From Phycisphaeraceae bacterium (GTDB taxonomy: Bacteria; Planctomycetota; Phycisphaerae; Phycisphaerales; Phycisphaeraceae), in assembly GCA_028280965.1 (NCBI GenBank), contig JANQKT010000099.1, positions 1-40,813 on the forward strand: a stretch of DNA of 40,813 nucleotides, read 5' to 3'. Under the pieces are notes generated by a model, which had not been told where the DNA came from, searched no databases, and worked only from the letters and a program-made list of their open reading frames with translations. Below are positions 29,707 through 38,660 of the stretch, piece by piece. The number at the start of each line of letters is the position of its first letter. Positions within the stretch are counted from its first letter, which is position 1. Made by a program: the position numbers and the translations under genes.

Positions 29707-32037
29707 TTAGGGTTCGACGACTTCCAGCACACCGATCATCGACGTGTAATGCCCGGGGTATGTGCACACGTAGTCGTACCGGCCGGGCGCGCCGGGCGCG
29801 AAGAAACGCAGCGTCGTTGACTCGCCTGCGCGGAGCATGGGTGTGTGCTGGAGCACCACGTCGCTGTCGGGGATATAGCCGATTGCCGCAGCTTCTGCGG
29901 GCGGCATCGCCGAGATCGTCACACCGATCTCTTGCGCCCGGCCGGGTCTGGTGATCACCAGGTTGTGCTCCATCGTGTCGGGGTTGACCAGCGTGATCTC
30001 GACCGGCCGACCGGCAGCCACAGTCAGCCTCGTCTTGTCATACGCCATCTTCCCCGGCACCGCGGACAGCGTGTGTTGCGTCAGCGTCAGATCATCAATG
30101 TCGCCCGGCTTAAACGGTTCGGGCAACGCATGGACCGCGCGGATCGCGGCGAAACGCAGGTCAATCTGTTCTGCGGTGCGCGCAAGCGTAAGCACCTTTT
30201 CGGCTTGCTCCTGCCCAATCGAGTTTGCCGGCAGGTAGCGAATCGCGCCCAGCGCGGCGACCCGGCTTGGTAAATGCTGATCCGGAGCCGTGAATGCGAC
30301 CTCGAATAGGAACGCCGGGCAGTCTTCAGGCAGCTGAGCCGGATCGACCCACGCGATGCCTTCAAACACCACGGGCTGTAGACCGGCCTCTTCGATGACG
30401 CCGCTGGAAAACGAGGGTGATGATCGGATAAACGCACCCGCAGCCGCGGCCCGCAGATCAGTCGTTCGGTTTTCTTGATTGATCAGGCCAACAAGCCGTT
30501 GCCGCTGTGCACCAAGTTCGGCGGCCGGCCACCGCGCAAGCGTCTGTAACAGTGCCGGCCGATCGGCTAGCGTGCGTGGGTTCATCGCTTCCAGCATGTT
30601 CAGCAGCGTGATGATCGGCGCGGTGGCGTTCGCCTCGGCGAGTTGACCGAGCATCTCGCCGATCATGTCGTCAGGCAGGTCCGCCCGTTCAAGCAGGATC
30701 GTGCAGACGATCGTGTCGCGCTCCTCGGCGAGCAGTTCATCCAGCGGCATCCGGCGCAGCCGATCGGCGCGGCTGTCGGCCGGGATCGGGTCGCCATAGG
30801 CGAGCATCTCGGCCATTGTGCTGCTGTAGAGCGCTCGCATGTCGTCGGTCATCGTGTAGGGCCCGGCGAGTTGCGCGACACCCGCGGCGCGTCGGCCGGG
30901 TATCGCGCGGGTTGTGGCCAGCGCTTCGTAACGCACCCGCATGTCCTTGTCTTCGGCCAACGGGGTGAGCCTGCCCAGCGGGTCAGTCGTGACGCCGGCC
31001 AGGTCCCCGATTGCGCGGGCGGCAAGGGCGCGGAGCGCCGGGTTGTCGGATGCAGCGGCGCGGTCGACGAGGTCGTCGGCGTGGACACCGAGGGCGCGGG
31101 ACAGGAGCAACGCTTGCGCGTTGTAATGTTCAGCCAGTGAGCCGCCGAATGTCTTCGTCCACTTTTCTGCACGATCGCGTTCATGCAGTGCTGGGACAAG
31201 TTCATAGGGCCCGCGGGCCAGCAGTTCCCATTGCTGTTTTGCGTATCTGCCACGGTCGGCGATGAGGTCCAGGTCCAGCAGCAACTCAACTGCCGAGGGT
31301 TTCATATCGATCGGCCAATCCGATGTCTCAAGATCCAGCCACGCCTTGAGGTACCCGCTGCCCGGTTTGCCCGGCAGGTCCTTGGCCGGTTCGATCTCAA
31401 CGAAGTCCAGCACATCCGTCTTCTCATCGAGCATCACGAAGGTCCAGTCGTAGGGGAACTCGTCCTCGCCGCGCGGCGTCGGGCCGGGCAGCGGGGCGAG
31501 GACGAGGATGGCCTCCGCATCCGCGAGTGTTTCGAGGTGCCGCTGGATCGCGGTGGCGAATTCGGTTTCCGGGTCGCCGCCGGCGTGGTCCACCGAAACA
31601 ATCGCGAGCGCGGGCGGTGCGTCTTGTTCGGCTGCATCAAGCGTGATCGGCGAGACATCGATGACGGTTAGCGCACCGCCGTCCCATTCCACTGACTGAA
31701 CCAACAGCCGGCCGTCGGGTTTGATCCCTGTTGCAACGATCTCGGCGAGCGCCGCAAGGCCCGACTCGTGTGACCACACGCCCCCAGCGAAAAACATCGG
31801 CTCGGGTGGCTCGGATTCGGCTTCACTGGGTTCATGCTGCCCGCTGAGTCGGGTTGACCGCGGCTCCGGTGCGAGCGTCCCGCACTCAACACCCCTGTCG
31901 CGCTTTGTGCTCTGCGGCGCTCCGGTTCGGAATGCCGCGCTGAACAGCAAGGCCGCTGCGATAGCGACGAAGACAAGCATCATGCTCGGCATCAGCCGGG
32001 CGGCATCTGGCGGGGGTTGATCGGTCGCGTGGGTCAT
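29707..32037 (-). CDS. Membrane-anchored HEAT-like protein with C-terminal cupredoxin domain
   Basis: A 776-residue protein. ATG 32037 (MTHATDQPPP) follows GGAG; an in-frame TTG at 32064 is less likely. One membrane helix (about residues 17-36) anchors it, followed by a Pro/Glu-rich linker. The middle is helical and resembles HEAT repeats (NPALRALAARAIGDLAG, RVRYEALATTRAI, LRFAAIRAVHAL). The last 110 residues form a type I copper domain, with His in TMEHNLVI and Cys, His and Met in YVCTYPGHYTSM, an azurin/plastocyanin-like ligand set. It is divergent from the Rieske operon and probably a periplasmic electron carrier. Confidence 0.88.
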   Translation of the reverse strand: MTHATDQPPPDAARLMPSMMLVFVAIAAALLFSAAFRTGAPQSTKRDRGVECGTLAPEPRSTRLSGQHEPSEAESEPPEPMFFAGGVWSHESGLAALAEIVATGIKPDGRLLVQSVEWDGGALTVIDVSPITLDAAEQDAPPALAIVSVDHAGGDPETEFATAIQRHLETLADAEAILVLAPLPGPTPRGEDEFPYDWTFVMLDEKTDVLDFVEIEPAKDLPGKPGSGYLKAWLDLETSDWPIDMKPSAVELLLDLDLIADRGRYAKQQWELLARGPYELVPALHERDRAEKWTKTFGGSLAEHYNAQALLLSRALGVHADDLVDRAAASDNPALRALAARAIGDLAGVTTDPLGRLTPLAEDKDMRVRYEALATTRAIPGRRAAGVAQLAGPYTMTDDMRALYSSTMAEMLAYGDPIPADSRADRLRRMPLDELLAEERDTIVCTILLERADLPDDMIGEMLGQLAEANATAPIITLLNMLEAMNPRTLADRPALLQTLARWPAAELGAQRQRLVGLINQENRTTDLRAAAAGAFIRSSPSFSSGVIEEAGLQPVVFEGIAWVDPAQLPEDCPAFLFEVAFTAPDQHLPSRVAALGAIRYLPANSIGQEQAEKVLTLARTAEQIDLRFAAIRAVHALPEPFKPGDIDDLTLTQHTLSAVPGKMAYDKTRLTVAAGRPVEITLVNPDTMEHNLVITRPGRAQEIGVTISAMPPAEAAAIGYIPDSDVVLQHTPMLRAGESTTLRFFAPGAPGRYDYVCTYPGHYTSMIGVLEVVEP

Positions 32038-32112
32038 CGGTTGATTGCTCCGGCGGTCAAACAATTCAGATATCAGGATAACCCGCCGCGGGAATAGAGC
32101 GGTGCCTCGGCG

Positions 32113-32121
32113 TGTTACAAT
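32113..32121 (+). promoter_or_regulatory. Extended -10 promoter candidate for the Rieske operon
   Basis: TGTTACAAT is an extended -10 element (TGn-TACAAT) 76 bases before the first small membrane protein. No matching -35 box is obvious. It lies in the 159-base divergent spacer, which otherwise shows no strong structure. Confidence 0.35.
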
Positions 32122-32196
32122 CCCGACGCTTCGGCCCGGTCTGCCTTACGTCCCGTCTTGCGAAGGTCTCGCGCCGCTCAAAGAAAGGTGCCACTG

Positions 32197-32400
32197 ATGC
32201 TTTTGCTCCCACTGCTGGTCTACGCCGCGATCGGTTTGTTGGTCGGCTTGGGCTTCGTAACGCGTGGTGTGAATCGGGTCGACCCAGCCGCCGCCGGCTC
32301 GCCGTTTATTTTCAGGCTTGTGATCCTGCCCGGCTGTATCGGGCTGTGGCCGCTGATCTTACTCAAGTGGGCCCGTGTGGAGAAGGGCGGTGACGCATGA
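32197..32400 (+). CDS. Small membrane protein (67 aa), first gene of Rieske operon
   Basis: MLLLPLLVYAAIGLLVGLGFVTRG forms one membrane helix and LVILPGCIGLWPLILLKWARV a second. The C-terminus is short and charged. ATG 32197 follows AAAGG. Its TGA overlaps the next start as ATGA (32397-32400), which suggests coupled translation. The family was not recognised. Its context suggests an accessory subunit of the redox complex encoded downstream. Confidence 0.8.
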   Translation: MLLLPLLVYAAIGLLVGLGFVTRGVNRVDPAAAGSPFIFRLVILPGCIGLWPLILLKWARVEKGGDA

Positions 32401-32576
32401 CCGGTCCGCAGCGCAAGGCGCACGTGTTGCTCTGGCTGGTGCTCGGGCCGATCGCGCTGATCGGGCTCGTGTTCGCGGTACAGTGGCGGCCGGCCGAACC
32501 GGTGCAGGATGGTGGTTTGCCCGGTGTTGAGTCGTCCATTCAATCAGGTGCCGCCGAGCCGGAGAACGCGCCATGA
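32397..32576 (+). CDS. Single-pass membrane protein (59 aa), second gene of Rieske operon
   Basis: Short frame found by eye: a basic start (MTGPQRKAHV), one membrane helix (LLWLVLGPIALIGLVFAV) and a Pro/Glu/Gly tail of about 30 residues. It overlaps both neighbours by ATGA (32397-32400 and 32573-32576), strong evidence that it is translated. No family is known to me. Confidence 0.8.
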   Translation: MTGPQRKAHVLLWLVLGPIALIGLVFAVQWRPAEPVQDGGLPGVESSIQSGAAEPENAP

Positions 32577-33649
32577 GCGTCCGCTACACCTGGGTCCAGT
32601 GGAACAAACACAAAAAGGTCTACGACCTCGTTCTGCTGCTCGGCGTCGCGGCATTCATCACGGTCTACATCGGCGTGAGTGTGCTGACGACGCCGCAGGG
32701 CCAGGCGACCAGCCCGCCGATCCTGATCATCCGTGCGACCGGCTCGTGTGCGATCGTGATGCTGCACCTGATCCTCGCGATCGGCCCGCTCGCGCGCCTG
32801 TACCCAAGCAGGTTCGCGCCGCTGCTCTACAACCGTAGGCACTTCGGCGTCACGATGTTCTTCGTCGCCCTTGTGCATGCCGTACTGCAGACGATGTGGT
32901 ACGGCGGGTTCGGCGTCGTCGATCCAATCACCGCGATGTTCACGATGAACACCCGCTACGACTCCTGGGTCGGCTTCCCGTTCGAGGCCTTCGGCGCCCT
33001 GGCGCTGACGATCCTCTTTTTCATGGCGGCGACCAGTCACGACTTCTGGCTCAAGAACCTCTCACCACGCTGGTGGAAGACGCTGCACATGGGCGTCTAC
33101 GTCGCGTACGCGTCGCTGGTCCTGCACGTCGCGCTCGGCACGATCCAGGCCGAGCGGAGCCTTGTCTATCCGCTGCTCATCGGAGGCGGGGCGGTGACGC
33201 TAATCGCGCTGCACCTGATCGCGGGGGTGCGTGAGGTCAGGGCGGATGCGGGTGCCAAGCCGGCGAGCGGTTGGGTGGACGTCGCATCAGTCGATGAAAT
33301 CCCGGCCGATCGGGCGAAGGTTGTCAGGCTCAAGACGCAAGGCGGCTGTGACCGCGTCGCGGTGTTCCGGCATGGCGAGCGGGGCGAGAAACTCTCCGCC
33401 GTTGCGAATGTTTGTGCCCACCAGGGCGGCCCCTTGGGCGAGGGCAAGGTCGTGGACGGCTGCATTACTTGTCCTTGGCACGGTTACCAGTACCGCCCGG
33501 AGGATGGTCAGTCCCCGCCGCCGTACACCGAGAAGATCCCAACTTATGAACTCCGGGTGGAGGGCGAGCGCGTGATGCTCAACCCCGAGGCGTTCGTGCC
33601 GGGCACGCCGATTGAGCCGGTGGTGATCGGAGGTATCAACGATGCATGA
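32573..33649 (+). CDS. Ferric-reductase-like membrane domain fused to a Rieske [2Fe-2S] domain
   Basis: A 358-residue protein. Residues 1-220 hold about six membrane helices with histidines H65, H90, H102, H172, H185 and H214, the arrangement expected for b-type haem binding in a ferric-reductase/YedZ-like domain. Residues about 235-345 form a Rieske domain with ligands C281-x-H283 and C300-x2-H303 (VCAHQGGPLG, TCPWHGYQ). The fusion would pass electrons between membrane haem and an iron-sulfur cluster. It overlaps both neighbours (ATGA upstream; eight bases downstream). Confidence 0.9.
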   Translation: MSVRYTWVQWNKHKKVYDLVLLLGVAAFITVYIGVSVLTTPQGQATSPPILIIRATGSCAIVMLHLILAIGPLARLYPSRFAPLLYNRRHFGVTMFFVALVHAVLQTMWYGGFGVVDPITAMFTMNTRYDSWVGFPFEAFGALALTILFFMAATSHDFWLKNLSPRWWKTLHMGVYVAYASLVLHVALGTIQAERSLVYPLLIGGGAVTLIALHLIAGVREVRADAGAKPASGWVDVASVDEIPADRAKVVRLKTQGGCDRVAVFRHGERGEKLSAVANVCAHQGGPLGEGKVVDGCITCPWHGYQYRPEDGQSPPPYTEKIPTYELRVEGERVMLNPEAFVPGTPIEPVVIGGINDA

Positions 33650-34421
33650 GCAAGACAAAGACCCGTTCTATGTCGGCTACCTCCCGCTGCCGCCGGCGAT
33701 CCGCAGTTTCATCCTGCCCTGGCTGGTCGGCAACCTCGTGCTCGCGGTCGGCATCGCGGCGGTGGTCGCGCAGCAGCACCGTCCGCCGGGGGATGGGACA
33801 TGGCAGACTTGGGAAGGGATATCAGTTGAAGGCCAATTCTTCATGAACCCCTATCCCGTCTTGCGTACTGATGATGCAACTTACATCTTGGTTGGGCAGG
33901 GGAAAGTTGGCATCCAGGATGATGTTCGGGCAATGAAGCTATCGGACGGCGATCTTGTCGTTGTAACGGGTAGTCCCATTGAACGAGAGGGGCGCAGTGT
34001 TTTGGAAGTCTATGAGCCGGCAGTCGATATTGTGCGTTCGAATGCAAATGCGGGGCCGTCATACTTCACGTCCTTTACTCGTATTGATCCACTTGTTCGC
34101 GAAGACCTCGGCACCCACACCCTTCGTGGCGAGATCGTCGACCCCAAGTGCTACCTCGGTGTCATGCAGCCCGGCGACGGCAAGACGCACAAGGCCTGCG
34201 CGACGCTCTGCATCAAGGGCGGCATCCCGCCCATGTTCCTGGTCCGCGATACGCAGGGGCGGGCCGCGGCGTACCTGCTGACCGACGCCGAGGGAGGCGC
34301 GATCCCCGAGTCGGTCCACCCGTACATCGCCGACCCGATCGAGCTGACCGGGCAAGTGCTGCGCGACGGTGACCTGCTGGTCCTGCAGGCGGACCTGGGC
34401 AGCATCAAGCGGCTGGATTGA
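33642..34421 (+). CDS. Membrane-anchored protein with Cys/His motif, last gene of Rieske operon
   Basis: A 259-residue protein with one N-terminal membrane helix (about 23-43, SFILPWLVGNLVLAVGIAAVV), then an extracytoplasmic beta-rich region. Near the C-terminus is C170-x12-H183-x2-C186-x3-C190 (DPKCYLGVMQPG, THKACATLCIKGGIPPM), a plausible metal or cluster site. It starts inside the Rieske gene's end. Bases about 33805-34090 are clearly less G+C-rich than the rest. No named family was recognised. Confidence 0.85.
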   Translation: MHEQDKDPFYVGYLPLPPAIRSFILPWLVGNLVLAVGIAAVVAQQHRPPGDGTWQTWEGISVEGQFFMNPYPVLRTDDATYILVGQGKVGIQDDVRAMKLSDGDLVVVTGSPIEREGRSVLEVYEPAVDIVRSNANAGPSYFTSFTRIDPLVREDLGTHTLRGEIVDPKCYLGVMQPGDGKTHKACATLCIKGGIPPMFLVRDTQGRAAAYLLTDAEGGAIPESVHPYIADPIELTGQVLRDGDLLVLQADLGSIKRLD

Positions 34422-34582: not shown

Positions 34583-35152
34583 ATGCCCGATCCGACCAAC
34601 GGCTCCGAAAACAACAACACCGCGACGCACACCGTGCCCTGGTCCACCAGCCCGCTGGCCCAGCTGATGACTCAGCTCAGCGACCTGGTCGCCACGCTCG
34701 ACGCCGAGCAGTACAACGCCCGGCCCGAGTCCACCAAGTGCGGCGCGGTCGGCGGGCACGTCCGCCACGTGCTGGACCACCTGGTCGCCTGGCTCGGCGG
34801 CGTCGAGGGCGGCCAAGTCAACTACGACGACCGCCAGCGCGACACCGATATCGAGCACGACCCAACCGCGGCGCTGCACGCCATCAAGCACCACACCGCG
34901 CGCCTTGCCGAGGTCAACGACGAGCAGCTCGCCGAGCGCGTCACCGTGCTGACGAGCATGACGTCCTGCGGTGCCTTGGTCGAGCTGCCCTCGACGCACG
35001 CGCGCGAGTTGGCCTTCGTCTTCAGCCACACGATCCACCACAACGCGATCATCGGCACGATCGCCCGCGCGCTCGGCGTCGCGCTGCCCGACAACTTCGG
35101 CACCGCGCCCTCGACCATCGCGTACCGGAACCAGAGCGGATGTGCACGGTAA
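34583..35152 (+). CDS. DinB-like four-helix protein
   Basis: A 189-residue soluble protein. Histidines placed in the DinB/YfiT manner are seen in GGHVRHVLDHLVAW and in FSHTIHHNAIIGTIARALG. The family is a metal-binding four-helix bundle, often a thiol-dependent transferase or of unknown role. ATG 34583 follows AGGGGAAGG. Its end overlaps the next gene by 13 bases in another frame. Confidence 0.82.
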   Translation: MPDPTNGSENNNTATHTVPWSTSPLAQLMTQLSDLVATLDAEQYNARPESTKCGAVGGHVRHVLDHLVAWLGGVEGGQVNYDDRQRDTDIEHDPTAALHAIKHHTARLAEVNDEQLAERVTVLTSMTSCGALVELPSTHARELAFVFSHTIHHNAIIGTIARALGVALPDNFGTAPSTIAYRNQSGCAR

Positions 35153-35880
35153 CCATCGTCCCGGCGGGCGGCGGTGGTTCGTTCCGCATGGCGTGCAACC
35201 GCGATGAAAGCCACGGCAGACCGCCCGCGCTGCCACCACAACAGCAAACCATTAACGGGATGACCTGCCTGCTGCCGATCGACCCCGGCTCGGGCGGGAC
35301 CTGGGTCGGTGTCAACGAAGCCGGGCTTGCGCTGACGCTGCTCAACTACAACCTGATCGATCCGCCAACGGGACGCGACCGCAGCCGGGGATCGGTCATC
35401 CCGCAACTCCTCGTGGCGCGCAGCGTCGACGAAGTGATCTCTCTCGCCAGGCCGATCGAACGTGAGCGGATGATGCCGTTCCGCCTGGTCGTTTCCGATG
35501 GGCAATCGCTGCTGCTCTGGCGGAGTACCGACCCGATCGAGCAGGCCGAGCGCTCGGCGTGGAGCGGCGCGCCCGTCATGTTTACTTCGTCCGGCCTGGG
35601 CGATCACCTTGTCGAGGGCCCGCGTCGCGATTTATTCGATGGCTGGTTCGGCGATGACCCCTCGGTTTACTTGGATGAGCAGCTCGCTTTCCACCGCCAC
35701 CAATGGACCGGCCGGGAGCACTTGAGCGTCTGCATGCACCGCGCGGACGCCCGCACCGTTAGCTACACGACGGTCGATGTGGATCCCGACGCGATCACGA
35801 TGACTTACCACCCCGATCGGCCCGACCTCAATGCCGCTGAGACGACCGCAAGCCTTCAACGCGGGCTGGCCGCGCGATGA
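35140..35880 (+). CDS. NRDE (TANGO2) family protein
   Basis: A 246-residue protein starting MCTVTIVPAGGG. Cys2 could act as an N-terminal nucleophile after Met removal, and the family signature NRDE is present in ACNRDESHGR. TWVGVNEAGLALTLLNYN is also conserved. TANGO2 homologues are linked to haem or lipid handling in eukaryotes, and the bacterial role is unknown. It overlaps the DinB-like gene at its start and the fusion gene at its end (ATGA, 35877-35880), so the three genes are translated together. Confidence 0.88.
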   Translation: MCTVTIVPAGGGGSFRMACNRDESHGRPPALPPQQQTINGMTCLLPIDPGSGGTWVGVNEAGLALTLLNYNLIDPPTGRDRSRGSVIPQLLVARSVDEVISLARPIERERMMPFRLVVSDGQSLLLWRSTDPIEQAERSAWSGAPVMFTSSGLGDHLVEGPRRDLFDGWFGDDPSVYLDEQLAFHRHQWTGREHLSVCMHRADARTVSYTTVDVDPDAITMTYHPDRPDLNAAETTASLQRGLAAR

Positions 35881-38660
35881 GTGCGGACACGCCGAGCGCA
35901 GAGCCGGGGGCATCGGCCGGAGCGGATGCGCCTAAGCGTCGTCGGGTGCGCTGGTGGTACTTCTACCTGCCGTTGTTGGTTGCGTCGTTTATCTGGCAAC
36001 TGCCAAACGACAAGCCCAAGCCACTGCCCGCGGGGTATCAATCAATCGATCTGCAGACGCAGCGGCGCGACGGGCCGGTGGTTGGGCCGTCGATCGAGCG
36101 CGAAGGCGATCGCCCGATCCGCGTCGCGCCGGACACGGTCCGCCTGGCCTATCAGGACGCCGGGCCGGATGATGGACCAGCCGTCGTGCTGCTGCACGGA
36201 AGCCCCGGCGACAGCGCAAACTTCGCGATGACCGACAACGGCCTGATCAAGACGCTCGCCGAGGAGGGCTACCGCGTCATCGCGCCCGACCTCCCCGGCT
36301 TCGGTGCCTCCGAGCGTTACGTGCCCGACTACTCCAACCGCGCCCACGCGCGCTACGTCCTCGCGCTGCTTGATGAACTCGACATCGAGTCCGCGCAATT
36401 CCTCGGCTTCTCCATGGGCGGCGGCGTCGCCATCAACCTCTACGACCTCGCCCCCGATCGCGTCGGATCCATCACGATGCTCGCGGCGATCGGCGTGCAG
36501 GAGGCCGAAGGCTCGGGCGATTACTACTTCGAGCACCTCAAGTATGGCATCGGATACCTGCTGCTGGTCGGCGGCGTTGAGTTCATCCCGCACTTCGGAT
36601 GGCTTGGCGACCGGTCGTTCCGCCACGCCTGGTTAAGAAATTTTTGGGACACGGACCAGCGGCCTAACCGCGCGATACTTCAACGCTACAACGAAGATCG
36701 CAAGCCGATGCTCATCATTCATGGCGAGGCCGACCCGCTTGCCCCGGCCCGCGTCGCTTACGATCACCACGAGATCGTGGAGAACAGCGAACTGGTTCTT
36801 TATGCTCGGGACGAATTCAATGACGAATCGAATCGCAGTAAGAACACCGCTTTTTTAAATCATGCAATGGTTTGGGATCAGCACGCGAATCAACTAGTAC
36901 TTGATGCGCTGCTGCCGTTCCTGAACAAGCATCGCAATCTGGACACCCCGGCCGAGCGTTCCACCCTCGACCGCGGCGGCGGGATGGAAGACAACGTCCT
37001 CCAACTGCCCGGCGACCTCGAGCTCCGTCGGGCGATGAGCCCCTGGGCGAAGATCGGCGTGATCATGCTCGGCACGTTCATCCTCGAAGACCCGACCTCG
37101 ATCGCCGTCGGGCTCTTCATCAAGGCCGGGCAGATCGACCCGTTCGTCGGCGGCTTCGCGATCCTCCTGGGCATCTTCCTCGGCGACCTCGGGCTCTACC
37201 TCATCGGCTACATCGTCGGCCGACGGGCGCTGGCCTGGCGGCCGATCGCCGCGTGGGTGCCGACGCGCCACGTCGAATCGCTCGGCGCGTGGTTCGACCA
37301 GAAGGGATGGAAGGCCGTGCTTGCCAGTCGGTTTATCCCCGGCTCACGCCTGCCGCTCTACGTCGCCGCGGGTGTTACCGGCAACAAGCCCGGCCGGTTC
37401 ATGCTCTGGACCTTCCTCGCCGTAAGCATCTGGGCCCCGGTGATCCTCATCGCCGTCGTCTTGCTGGGCAACGCGGCACGCTCTCCGTTCCAGCTCATCC
37501 TCGACCTCGGCGGCTGGCCCGCCTTCATCGCCGTGGTCCTCGTCCTGATGGTTCTGATCAACGCGCTCCTGTCGCTGTTCAGCCGCACCGGCCGACGCAA
37601 GCTCGCGATCCGGCTGCAGAAACAATGGAAGCACGAGTACTGGCCCGGCTGGAAGTTCTACCTCCCGCTGGTCCCGTACTTCGCCTCGCTGTGCTTGAAG
37701 TACCGCTCGTTCACCGTCTGGACCCTCGCCGACCCGTGCATGCCCGACGGCGGGGTGGTCGGCGAGTCCAAGAGCGACATCCTCGACCAGATCGATGACC
37801 CCGCGGTGTTGAAGCACGCGCTGATCTCAGGCGATGGGGAAGCAAATGAAAAGGAAAAGGCCGAGACAGCGAAGCGCATCATCGTCGAGCGCGGCTGGTC
37901 GTACCCGTTGATCCTCAAACCCGACGCCGCGCAGCGCGGCGCGGGCGTCGCCCTGATCAAGACCGCCGATGACATCGGCGGCTATTTCGAGAAGACCCAC
38001 GGGCCCGTCCAGCTCCAGCAGTACCACCCCGGACCCGAGGAGTGCGGCATCTTCTACGTCCGCATGCCCCACGAGCCGGCCGGGCGGATCTTCTCAATCA
38101 CCGACAAGGTCTTCCCCGTCCTCGTCGGCGACGGCCGATCGACGCTCGAAGAGCTGATCTGGCGGCACCCGCGCTTCCGCTTCCAGCACGATGTCTTCCA
38201 CATCCGCTGGGCCGACGAGTTGGACCGCGTGCTGGAAGAAGGCGAAGAACTCAGGCTCGCCGAGGCCGGCAACCACTGTCAGGGCACGCTCTTTCAGGAT
38301 GGCTCACGCCTGATCACACCAGTACTCGAAGAGCGCATCGACGCACTCGCCAAGCGGCTGGACGGCTTCTACTTCGGCCGGATCGATGTGCGGTACACCG
38401 ACGAAGAATCGCTCAAGCGCGGCGAGGGCTTCGCCGTCATCGAGCTCAACGGCGTCACCAGCGAATCGACCAACCTCTACGACCCGGCCTGGTCCCTCTG
38501 GCAGGCCCACGCGGTGCTGCGCAAGCAGTGGGCCGCCTGCTTCGCCATCGGCGACGCGATCCGTAAACGCGACAGGATCAAGCCCAAGCCGCCCCTGCGC
38601 CTGCTACGCGACATCCTGCGCTACTACCGCGGCCGCCACATCGCGGCGGTGTCGGATTAA
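35877..38660 (+). CDS. Three-part fusion: alpha/beta hydrolase, DedA membrane domain, ATP-grasp-like domain
   Basis: A 927-residue protein. After a membrane helix (about 26-42), residues 85-350 are an alpha/beta hydrolase with HGSPG oxyanion motif (107-111), nucleophile S179 in GFSMGG, acid D286 (HGEADP) and H329 as the likely base. Residues about 385-570 are a DedA/SNARE-associated membrane domain with SRFIPGSRLPLY. Residues about 600-890 resemble an ATP-grasp ligase (LILKPDAAQRGAGVALIK, QLQQYHPGPEECGIFYVR, FAVIELNGVTSESTNLYDP). Each part is recognisable, but the combination is not one I know. It is coupled to the NRDE gene and ends three bases from a convergent gene. Confidence 0.88.
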   Translation: MSADTPSAEPGASAGADAPKRRRVRWWYFYLPLLVASFIWQLPNDKPKPLPAGYQSIDLQTQRRDGPVVGPSIEREGDRPIRVAPDTVRLAYQDAGPDDGPAVVLLHGSPGDSANFAMTDNGLIKTLAEEGYRVIAPDLPGFGASERYVPDYSNRAHARYVLALLDELDIESAQFLGFSMGGGVAINLYDLAPDRVGSITMLAAIGVQEAEGSGDYYFEHLKYGIGYLLLVGGVEFIPHFGWLGDRSFRHAWLRNFWDTDQRPNRAILQRYNEDRKPMLIIHGEADPLAPARVAYDHHEIVENSELVLYARDEFNDESNRSKNTAFLNHAMVWDQHANQLVLDALLPFLNKHRNLDTPAERSTLDRGGGMEDNVLQLPGDLELRRAMSPWAKIGVIMLGTFILEDPTSIAVGLFIKAGQIDPFVGGFAILLGIFLGDLGLYLIGYIVGRRALAWRPIAAWVPTRHVESLGAWFDQKGWKAVLASRFIPGSRLPLYVAAGVTGNKPGRFMLWTFLAVSIWAPVILIAVVLLGNAARSPFQLILDLGGWPAFIAVVLVLMVLINALLSLFSRTGRRKLAIRLQKQWKHEYWPGWKFYLPLVPYFASLCLKYRSFTVWTLADPCMPDGGVVGESKSDILDQIDDPAVLKHALISGDGEANEKEKAETAKRIIVERGWSYPLILKPDAAQRGAGVALIKTADDIGGYFEKTHGPVQLQQYHPGPEECGIFYVRMPHEPAGRIFSITDKVFPVLVGDGRSTLEELIWRHPRFRFQHDVFHIRWADELDRVLEEGEELRLAEAGNHCQGTLFQDGSRLITPVLEERIDALAKRLDGFYFGRIDVRYTDEESLKRGEGFAVIELNGVTSESTNLYDPAWSLWQAHAVLRKQWAACFAIGDAIRKRDRIKPKPPLRLLRDILRYYRGRHIAAVSD

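Follow-up and report, generated by a model that had tools for sequence, protein, structure and literature searches.

The genes sm1, sm2, FRD-Rieske and anch form a genuine, broadly conserved operon, and the divergent copper-protein gene beside them is a local chance neighbour and not a component. We analyzed this operon in a contig of 40,813 nucleotides from a Phycisphaeraceae bacterium (JANQKT010000099.1), hereafter referred to as the window. An earlier note on this DNA knew of no named complex of such composition, and the open-access literature that we searched likewise holds no description of the four-gene composition, the only neighbouring work being a survey of ferric-reductase domain (FRD) architectures (PMC3591440). 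This is apparently the first description of the four-gene cassette as a system.

A conserved operon and its divergent neighbour

The five open reading frames of the operon and its neighbour lie exactly at the coordinates given in Table 1. The four operon genes successively overlap by 4, 4 and 8 bases, and the divergent cupredoxin gene lies 132 bases upstream of sm1. Coordinates and Pfam searches thus bore out the pieces as first described, from reading frames and domains to tight coupling. Nothing in Pfam or NCBIfam scored above cut-off for sm1, sm2 or anch, three of the four cassette proteins, which are annotated as hypothetical in their carriers.

Table 1. Genes of the cassette and adjoining features in the window
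Feature	Coordinates	Strand	Description
Cupredoxin-HEAT neighbour	29707..32064	-	Membrane-anchored, weak HEAT-like repeats; judged non-member
sm1	32197..32400	+	67 aa, two predicted TM helices; no Pfam/NCBIfam family
sm2	32397..32576	+	59 aa, single TM; basic N-terminal RRxH-type motif (QRKAH here)
FRD-Rieske	32573..33649	+	Six-TM ferric-reductase (YedZ/MsrQ/STEAP-type) domain and C-terminal ferredoxin-type Rieske [2Fe-2S] domain
anch	33642..34421	+	Single TM, two OB-like domains, second with Cys/His motif
DinB-family gene	34583..35152	+	Pfam DinB 5.9e-9; in 20/102 cassette loci vs 0/20 control stretches
TANGO2-family gene	35140..35880	+	Pfam TANGO2 7.2e-10; in 19/102 cassette loci vs 0/20 controls
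Alpha/beta-hydrolase, VTT (DedA-like) and ATP-grasp-like fusion	35877..38660	+	Abhydrolase_1 1.7e-27, VTT 1.2e-15

Out of 246 Planctomycetota genomes, 17 encode a full-length FRD-Rieske protein or its two parts, and each of the 16 neighbourhoods besides that of the window has sm1 upstream of this gene and anch immediately after it. A profile scan of approximately 85,000 species genomes identified 540 loci with an anch relative. We examined the neighbourhoods of the best 80 of these, which by MAG title fall in the Planctomycetota, Alpha- and Gammaproteobacteria, Acidobacteriota, Verrucomicrobiota and Rhodothermia. Among these 80 the partners are nearly always the same where the contig permits: FRD-Rieske adjoins anch in 75 and sm1 is present in 73, and of the five loci that lack the FRD, four lie at contig ends (L038, L068, L104 and L107) and the fifth is L096. 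An sm2 candidate occurs between sm1 and the FRD in 90 of 91 loci; three of these candidates (L031, L034 and L052) lie in the frame of sm1 itself and are not counted as sm2. The order sm1-sm2-FRD/Rieske-anch recurs in about 90 distinct loci across the phyla named above, indicating that the four plus-strand genes are not chance reading frames and upholding the earlier picture of a tightly coupled membrane redox operon with haem-type, Rieske and Cys/His parts. The locus set includes two pairs of loci that each duplicate one contig (L021/L065 and L022/L106), and the contigs of L152 and L039 are equally long. Scans of IMG/VR with FRD-Rieske and anch returned zero viral copies.

The divergent neighbour had been counted as a fifth part, in a complex whose Rieske cluster and haem would pass electrons to a cupredoxin at the cell surface. 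Its copper site is intact, with a Copper-bind match (2.7e-9, residues 667-782) and the type I ligands H700, C767, H772 and M776, whereas its HEAT_2 match (7.6e-5, 23.4 bits) stays below the cut-off of 27.7. Among 102 cassette loci, a full-length cupredoxin-HEAT protein was found in one, the nearest relative (L037), where it retains 46% identity over its whole length and the same divergent position. G260 and G295, two genomes from the window's genus, encode the operon with 67-71% identity and gave no cupredoxin-HEAT match at E<=1e-20. Across the 81 genomes of the order, a cupredoxin-domain match occurs in 12, FRD-Rieske in 20 and both in two. Synteny, co-occurrence and the absence from G260 and G295 rule the cupredoxin out as a member, so that the gene-neighbourhood search proposed in the earlier note confirmed the four plus-strand genes and failed for the fifth. 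The copper protein is no required partner in this genome. The five-part complex is therefore highly improbable despite the copper site and the placement kept in the nearest relative, all the more as the Rieske domain is predicted to be cytoplasmic.

The cassette proteins and their known relatives

The FRD-Rieske protein joins a Pfam Ferric_reduct domain (4.2e-14, residues 56-182) to a Rieske domain (2.2e-14, residues 234-325) in a single chain. The membrane part qualifies as PF01794 by its score (53.1 bits against a cut-off of 28), its six TM helices and the TM3/TM5 haem-ligand residues R88/H102/H172/H185, and the Rieske part has the C-x-H...C-x2-H ligands C281/H283/C300/H303. R88, H90, H102, H156, H172, H185 and all four Rieske ligands are invariant in 54 sequences. 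The spacings of R88/H102 (14) and H172/H185 (13) equal those of the YedZ/STEAP1 pattern R/H115 and H209/H222 (PMC3591440), and H90 and H156 are invariant beyond the Arg and His/His/His set of YedZ/STEAP1. The AF2 model (pLDDT 90) contains six predicted helices. Loops assigned to the inside carry 1.3, 4.3 and 1.7 K+R and those assigned to the outside 0.3, 0.7 and 0.5; because of these positive charges and the six helices, both termini, and hence the Rieske domain, are predicted to be cytoplasmic. This prediction speaks against a Rieske domain at the cell surface.

The closest known system is MsrPQ, the periplasmic methionine sulfoxide reductase whose haem subunit is MsrQ/YedZ. Of the NCBIfam models, MsrQ matched the membrane part best (1.8e-10), but the score fell below the cut-off of the MsrQ equivalog NF003831 (40.7 against 130 bits), and the MsrP family (PF00174) had no match in the window genome, with 9 of 14 control genomes positive. 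The protein is thus MsrQ-like and not MsrQ. It shares the FRD fold and the Arg and His/His/His pattern with MsrQ/YedZ, and its proposed task, a membrane haem handing electrons to a periplasmic partner, is also that of MsrQ. Unlike MsrQ, it bears a C-terminal Rieske domain, and unlike in MsrPQ, its partner is an OB-domain Cys/His protein and no molybdoenzyme, accompanied by two small subunits. NOX, bacterial long FRE and STEAP proteins likewise use a six-TM FRD to export electrons supplied by a cytosolic donor domain, as proposed for the cassette. However, the FAD/NAD(P)H domain of NOX and FRE is absent, and a Rieske [2Fe-2S] domain holds its position. A Rieske module is already listed as domain model M4 in the survey of FRD architectures (PMC3591440), where it appears with an FMN domain and where no operon, partners or function are described.

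The Rieske domain itself is of the ferredoxin type, its nearest solved relatives being soluble dioxygenase ferredoxins such as CarAc, BphF and NdoA as opposed to bc1-type proteins. Unlike these ferredoxins, it forms one chain with a membrane haem domain, and the linked enzymes are GltS-like and ThDP-dependent. The cassette resembles cytochrome bc1, b6f and Alternative Complex III in being a membrane redox system, and bc complexes also pair membrane haem with a Rieske protein. However, its Rieske domain, unlike that of bc1/b6f, is predicted on the cytoplasmic side, and searches for cytochrome b (Pfam and NCBIfam), cytochrome c and multihaem subunit families (Pfam) gave no match in the cassette. 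FRD-based transmembrane electron transfer is already known; judging from the sequences, the new element is apparently a Rieske-input variant with its own partners.

The second domain of anch contains the motif E-x2-D-x-K-C-x2-G-x-M-x-P...H-x2-C-A-x2-C-x2-GG-x-PP, in which D167, K169, C170, G173, M175, P177, H183, C186, A187 and C190 are invariant in 60 sequences. In the AF2 model (pLDDT 90), a single N-terminal TM helix is followed by two OB-like domains, the second of which has the conserved Cys/His stretch as a predicted helical insert. Given the N-terminal TM helix, this domain should face the periplasm. An alignment combining fusion, FRD and anch sequences misplaced its short rows and was left out of the structure predictions. 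Matches of anch to solved OB folds reached at most Z 7.8 (rmsd 3.0 over 90 residues), with Foldseek E above 1e-3, and no sequence relative was found in the PDB. As these matches are to generic OB folds alone (Z<8), no function was assigned from the fold search. We also considered a likeness of the C-x3-C/His/Met pattern to a CuA site, which we do not claim because the fold differs.

The small protein sm1 has the motif Y-x3-G...G-x4-DP...FR...PG...LWP...W, with Y9, G13, G24, D29, F39, P45, L50, W51, P52 and W58 invariant. Relatives of sm2 sometimes reach 120-190 aa with a C-terminal domain. Both proteins would serve as assembly or structural subunits.

Linked genes and a proposed electron path

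Two kinds of Rieske enzyme accompany the cassette. RieGltS, a 540-aa protein with a Rieske domain, an FMN glutamate-synthase domain and 3Fe-4S cysteines (motif present in 17 of 17 full-length copies), ends -8 to +25 bases from sm1, upstream and on the same strand, in 12 mostly alphaproteobacterial loci. The other is a 650-aa Rieske-ThDP protein whose nearest relatives are pyruvate oxidases; it occurs in more than 20 cassette neighbourhoods, and its Rieske ligands are kept in all 20 copies examined. Across the 246 Planctomycetota genomes, the cassette is present in 7 of 10 Rieske-ThDP carriers (Fisher p=2e-7) and 7 of 21 RieGltS carriers (p=1e-4), both values ignoring phylogeny. The link to Rieske flavoenzymes is missing from most Planctomycetota loci; the window genome encodes a Rieske-ThDP protein on another contig and gave no RieGltS match at E<=1e-120.

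Downstream of anch, the DinB, TANGO2 and hydrolase-VTT genes make up a conserved module (34583-38660) that accompanies the cassette in about 20 loci, those of Rhodothermia and Acidobacteriota MAGs among them. The VTT part lies near 20 of 102 cassette loci compared with 0 of 20 controls. The C-terminal ATP-grasp label of the fusion was given by eye, with no Pfam hit. Bacterial TANGO2 homologues bind haem (PMC10470608), although it is contested whether TANGO2 acts in haem biology (PMC12782551). ABC transporter, SDR, YHS and DoxX genes were rejected as linked genes, being not clearly above control frequency.

The conserved gene order, the FRD-Rieske-anch fusions, the invariant haem-type and Rieske ligands, the predicted topology and the RieGltS, ThDP and TANGO2 links suggest that the cassette probably encodes an MsrQ/STEAP-type transmembrane electron conduit that has a cytosolic input domain built in and delivers to a periplasmic output protein of its own. 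The sequences themselves show the operon, how it is conserved, the ligand sets and the gene links; from these we infer a donor, a haem path and the reduction of anch. The cytoplasmic Rieske domain would be reduced by a soluble donor, which the linked Rieske-containing flavoenzymes either share or supply, and would pass the electrons on to haem b, with H102/H185 as ligands and R88/H90/H172, nearer the cytoplasm, as possible further ones. After crossing the membrane, the electrons would arrive at anch and reduce a metal or thiol site that its second OB domain forms from C170, H183, C186, C190 and possibly M175. The final step may be a repair or detoxification reaction in the envelope. The direction of electron flow could also be opposite to this outward conduit, and the anch site could instead be a structural Zn site or a disulphide relay. 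More tentatively, and with the balance of our judgement against it, Rieske domains may be a shared cytosolic electron currency, with RieGltS, the Rieske-pyruvate-oxidase-like enzyme and Rieske-FRD forming one widespread chain that exports electrons to the periplasmic anch centre.

Two other functions can be weighed against the outward conduit. One is repair of oxidative damage in the envelope by an analogue of MsrPQ, with anch in the place of MsrP and Rieske replacing Fre or quinol as donor. The absence of an MsrP-family protein from the window genome is consistent with this, as are stress genes near the three Rhizobium plasmid copies examined: DsbD/DsbA near two of them, sigma-70/NrsF/DUF1109 near two, and DoxX or YHS near two. 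In Caulobacter and Brucella, MsrP(Q) is under the control of NrsF-type systems (PMC3511200, PMC8315932). However, sigma-factor hits occur in 4 of 102 loci alone, YHS genes are found near 17 of 102 loci but also in 1 of 20 controls, and anch is unlike any known reductase. The idea is reasonable but weakly supported because sigma-factor links are rare outside the Rhizobium plasmids, and we consider it unlikely. The other is a cell-surface metal reductase of the STEAP/FRE type, passing electrons from Rieske through haem to Fe(III) or Cu(II), with anch serving as a metal-binding site that hands the ions over for uptake. The FRD family does include ferric and cupric reductases (PMC3591440), the Cys/His/Met cluster of anch is conserved, and some loci have an ABC ATPase gene nearby. 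Yet that gene is equally frequent in controls (15/102 against 3/20), no conserved metal importer adjoins the cassette and the FAD/NAD(P)H domain is missing, making a metal reductase quite unlikely.

If the outward conduit is correct, it would add a route of transmembrane electron export that has a Rieske input, make anch a new family of periplasmic Cys/His redox proteins, and help to explain why GltS-like and pyruvate-oxidase-like enzymes carry Rieske domains.

Variant cassettes and individual loci

FRD-Rieske is fused to anch as one protein in two Planctomycetota loci (L023 and L034) and one from Thermoanaerobaculia (L105), and L034 additionally has an sm1-sm2 fusion. At L096 (9601-9999), a 132-aa Rieske protein directly precedes anch, and sm1, sm2 and the FRD are missing. 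This protein consists of the N half of a GltS-type Rieske joined to the C half of an FRD-type Rieske, which looks as if either two Rieske genes had recombined, causing a deletion, or the assembly had collapsed. In three Planctomycetota genomes (G245, G128 and G045), RieGltS contains one in-frame TGA each, which could reflect sequencing error, decay or recoding.

One Marinicaulis genome (contig JANQRY010000003.1) carries two cassettes about 0.48 Mb apart (L069 and L075), just one of which has an adjacent RieGltS gene. The cassette also occurs on large replicons, the plasmids of the Rhizobium leguminosarum group (L164-L166), which makes genetics directly possible. All three of these copies have a block of ThDP-enzyme, CoA-transferase, OpgC and TPR genes upstream of the cassette and an additional 70-aa hypothetical gene overlapping the end of anch.
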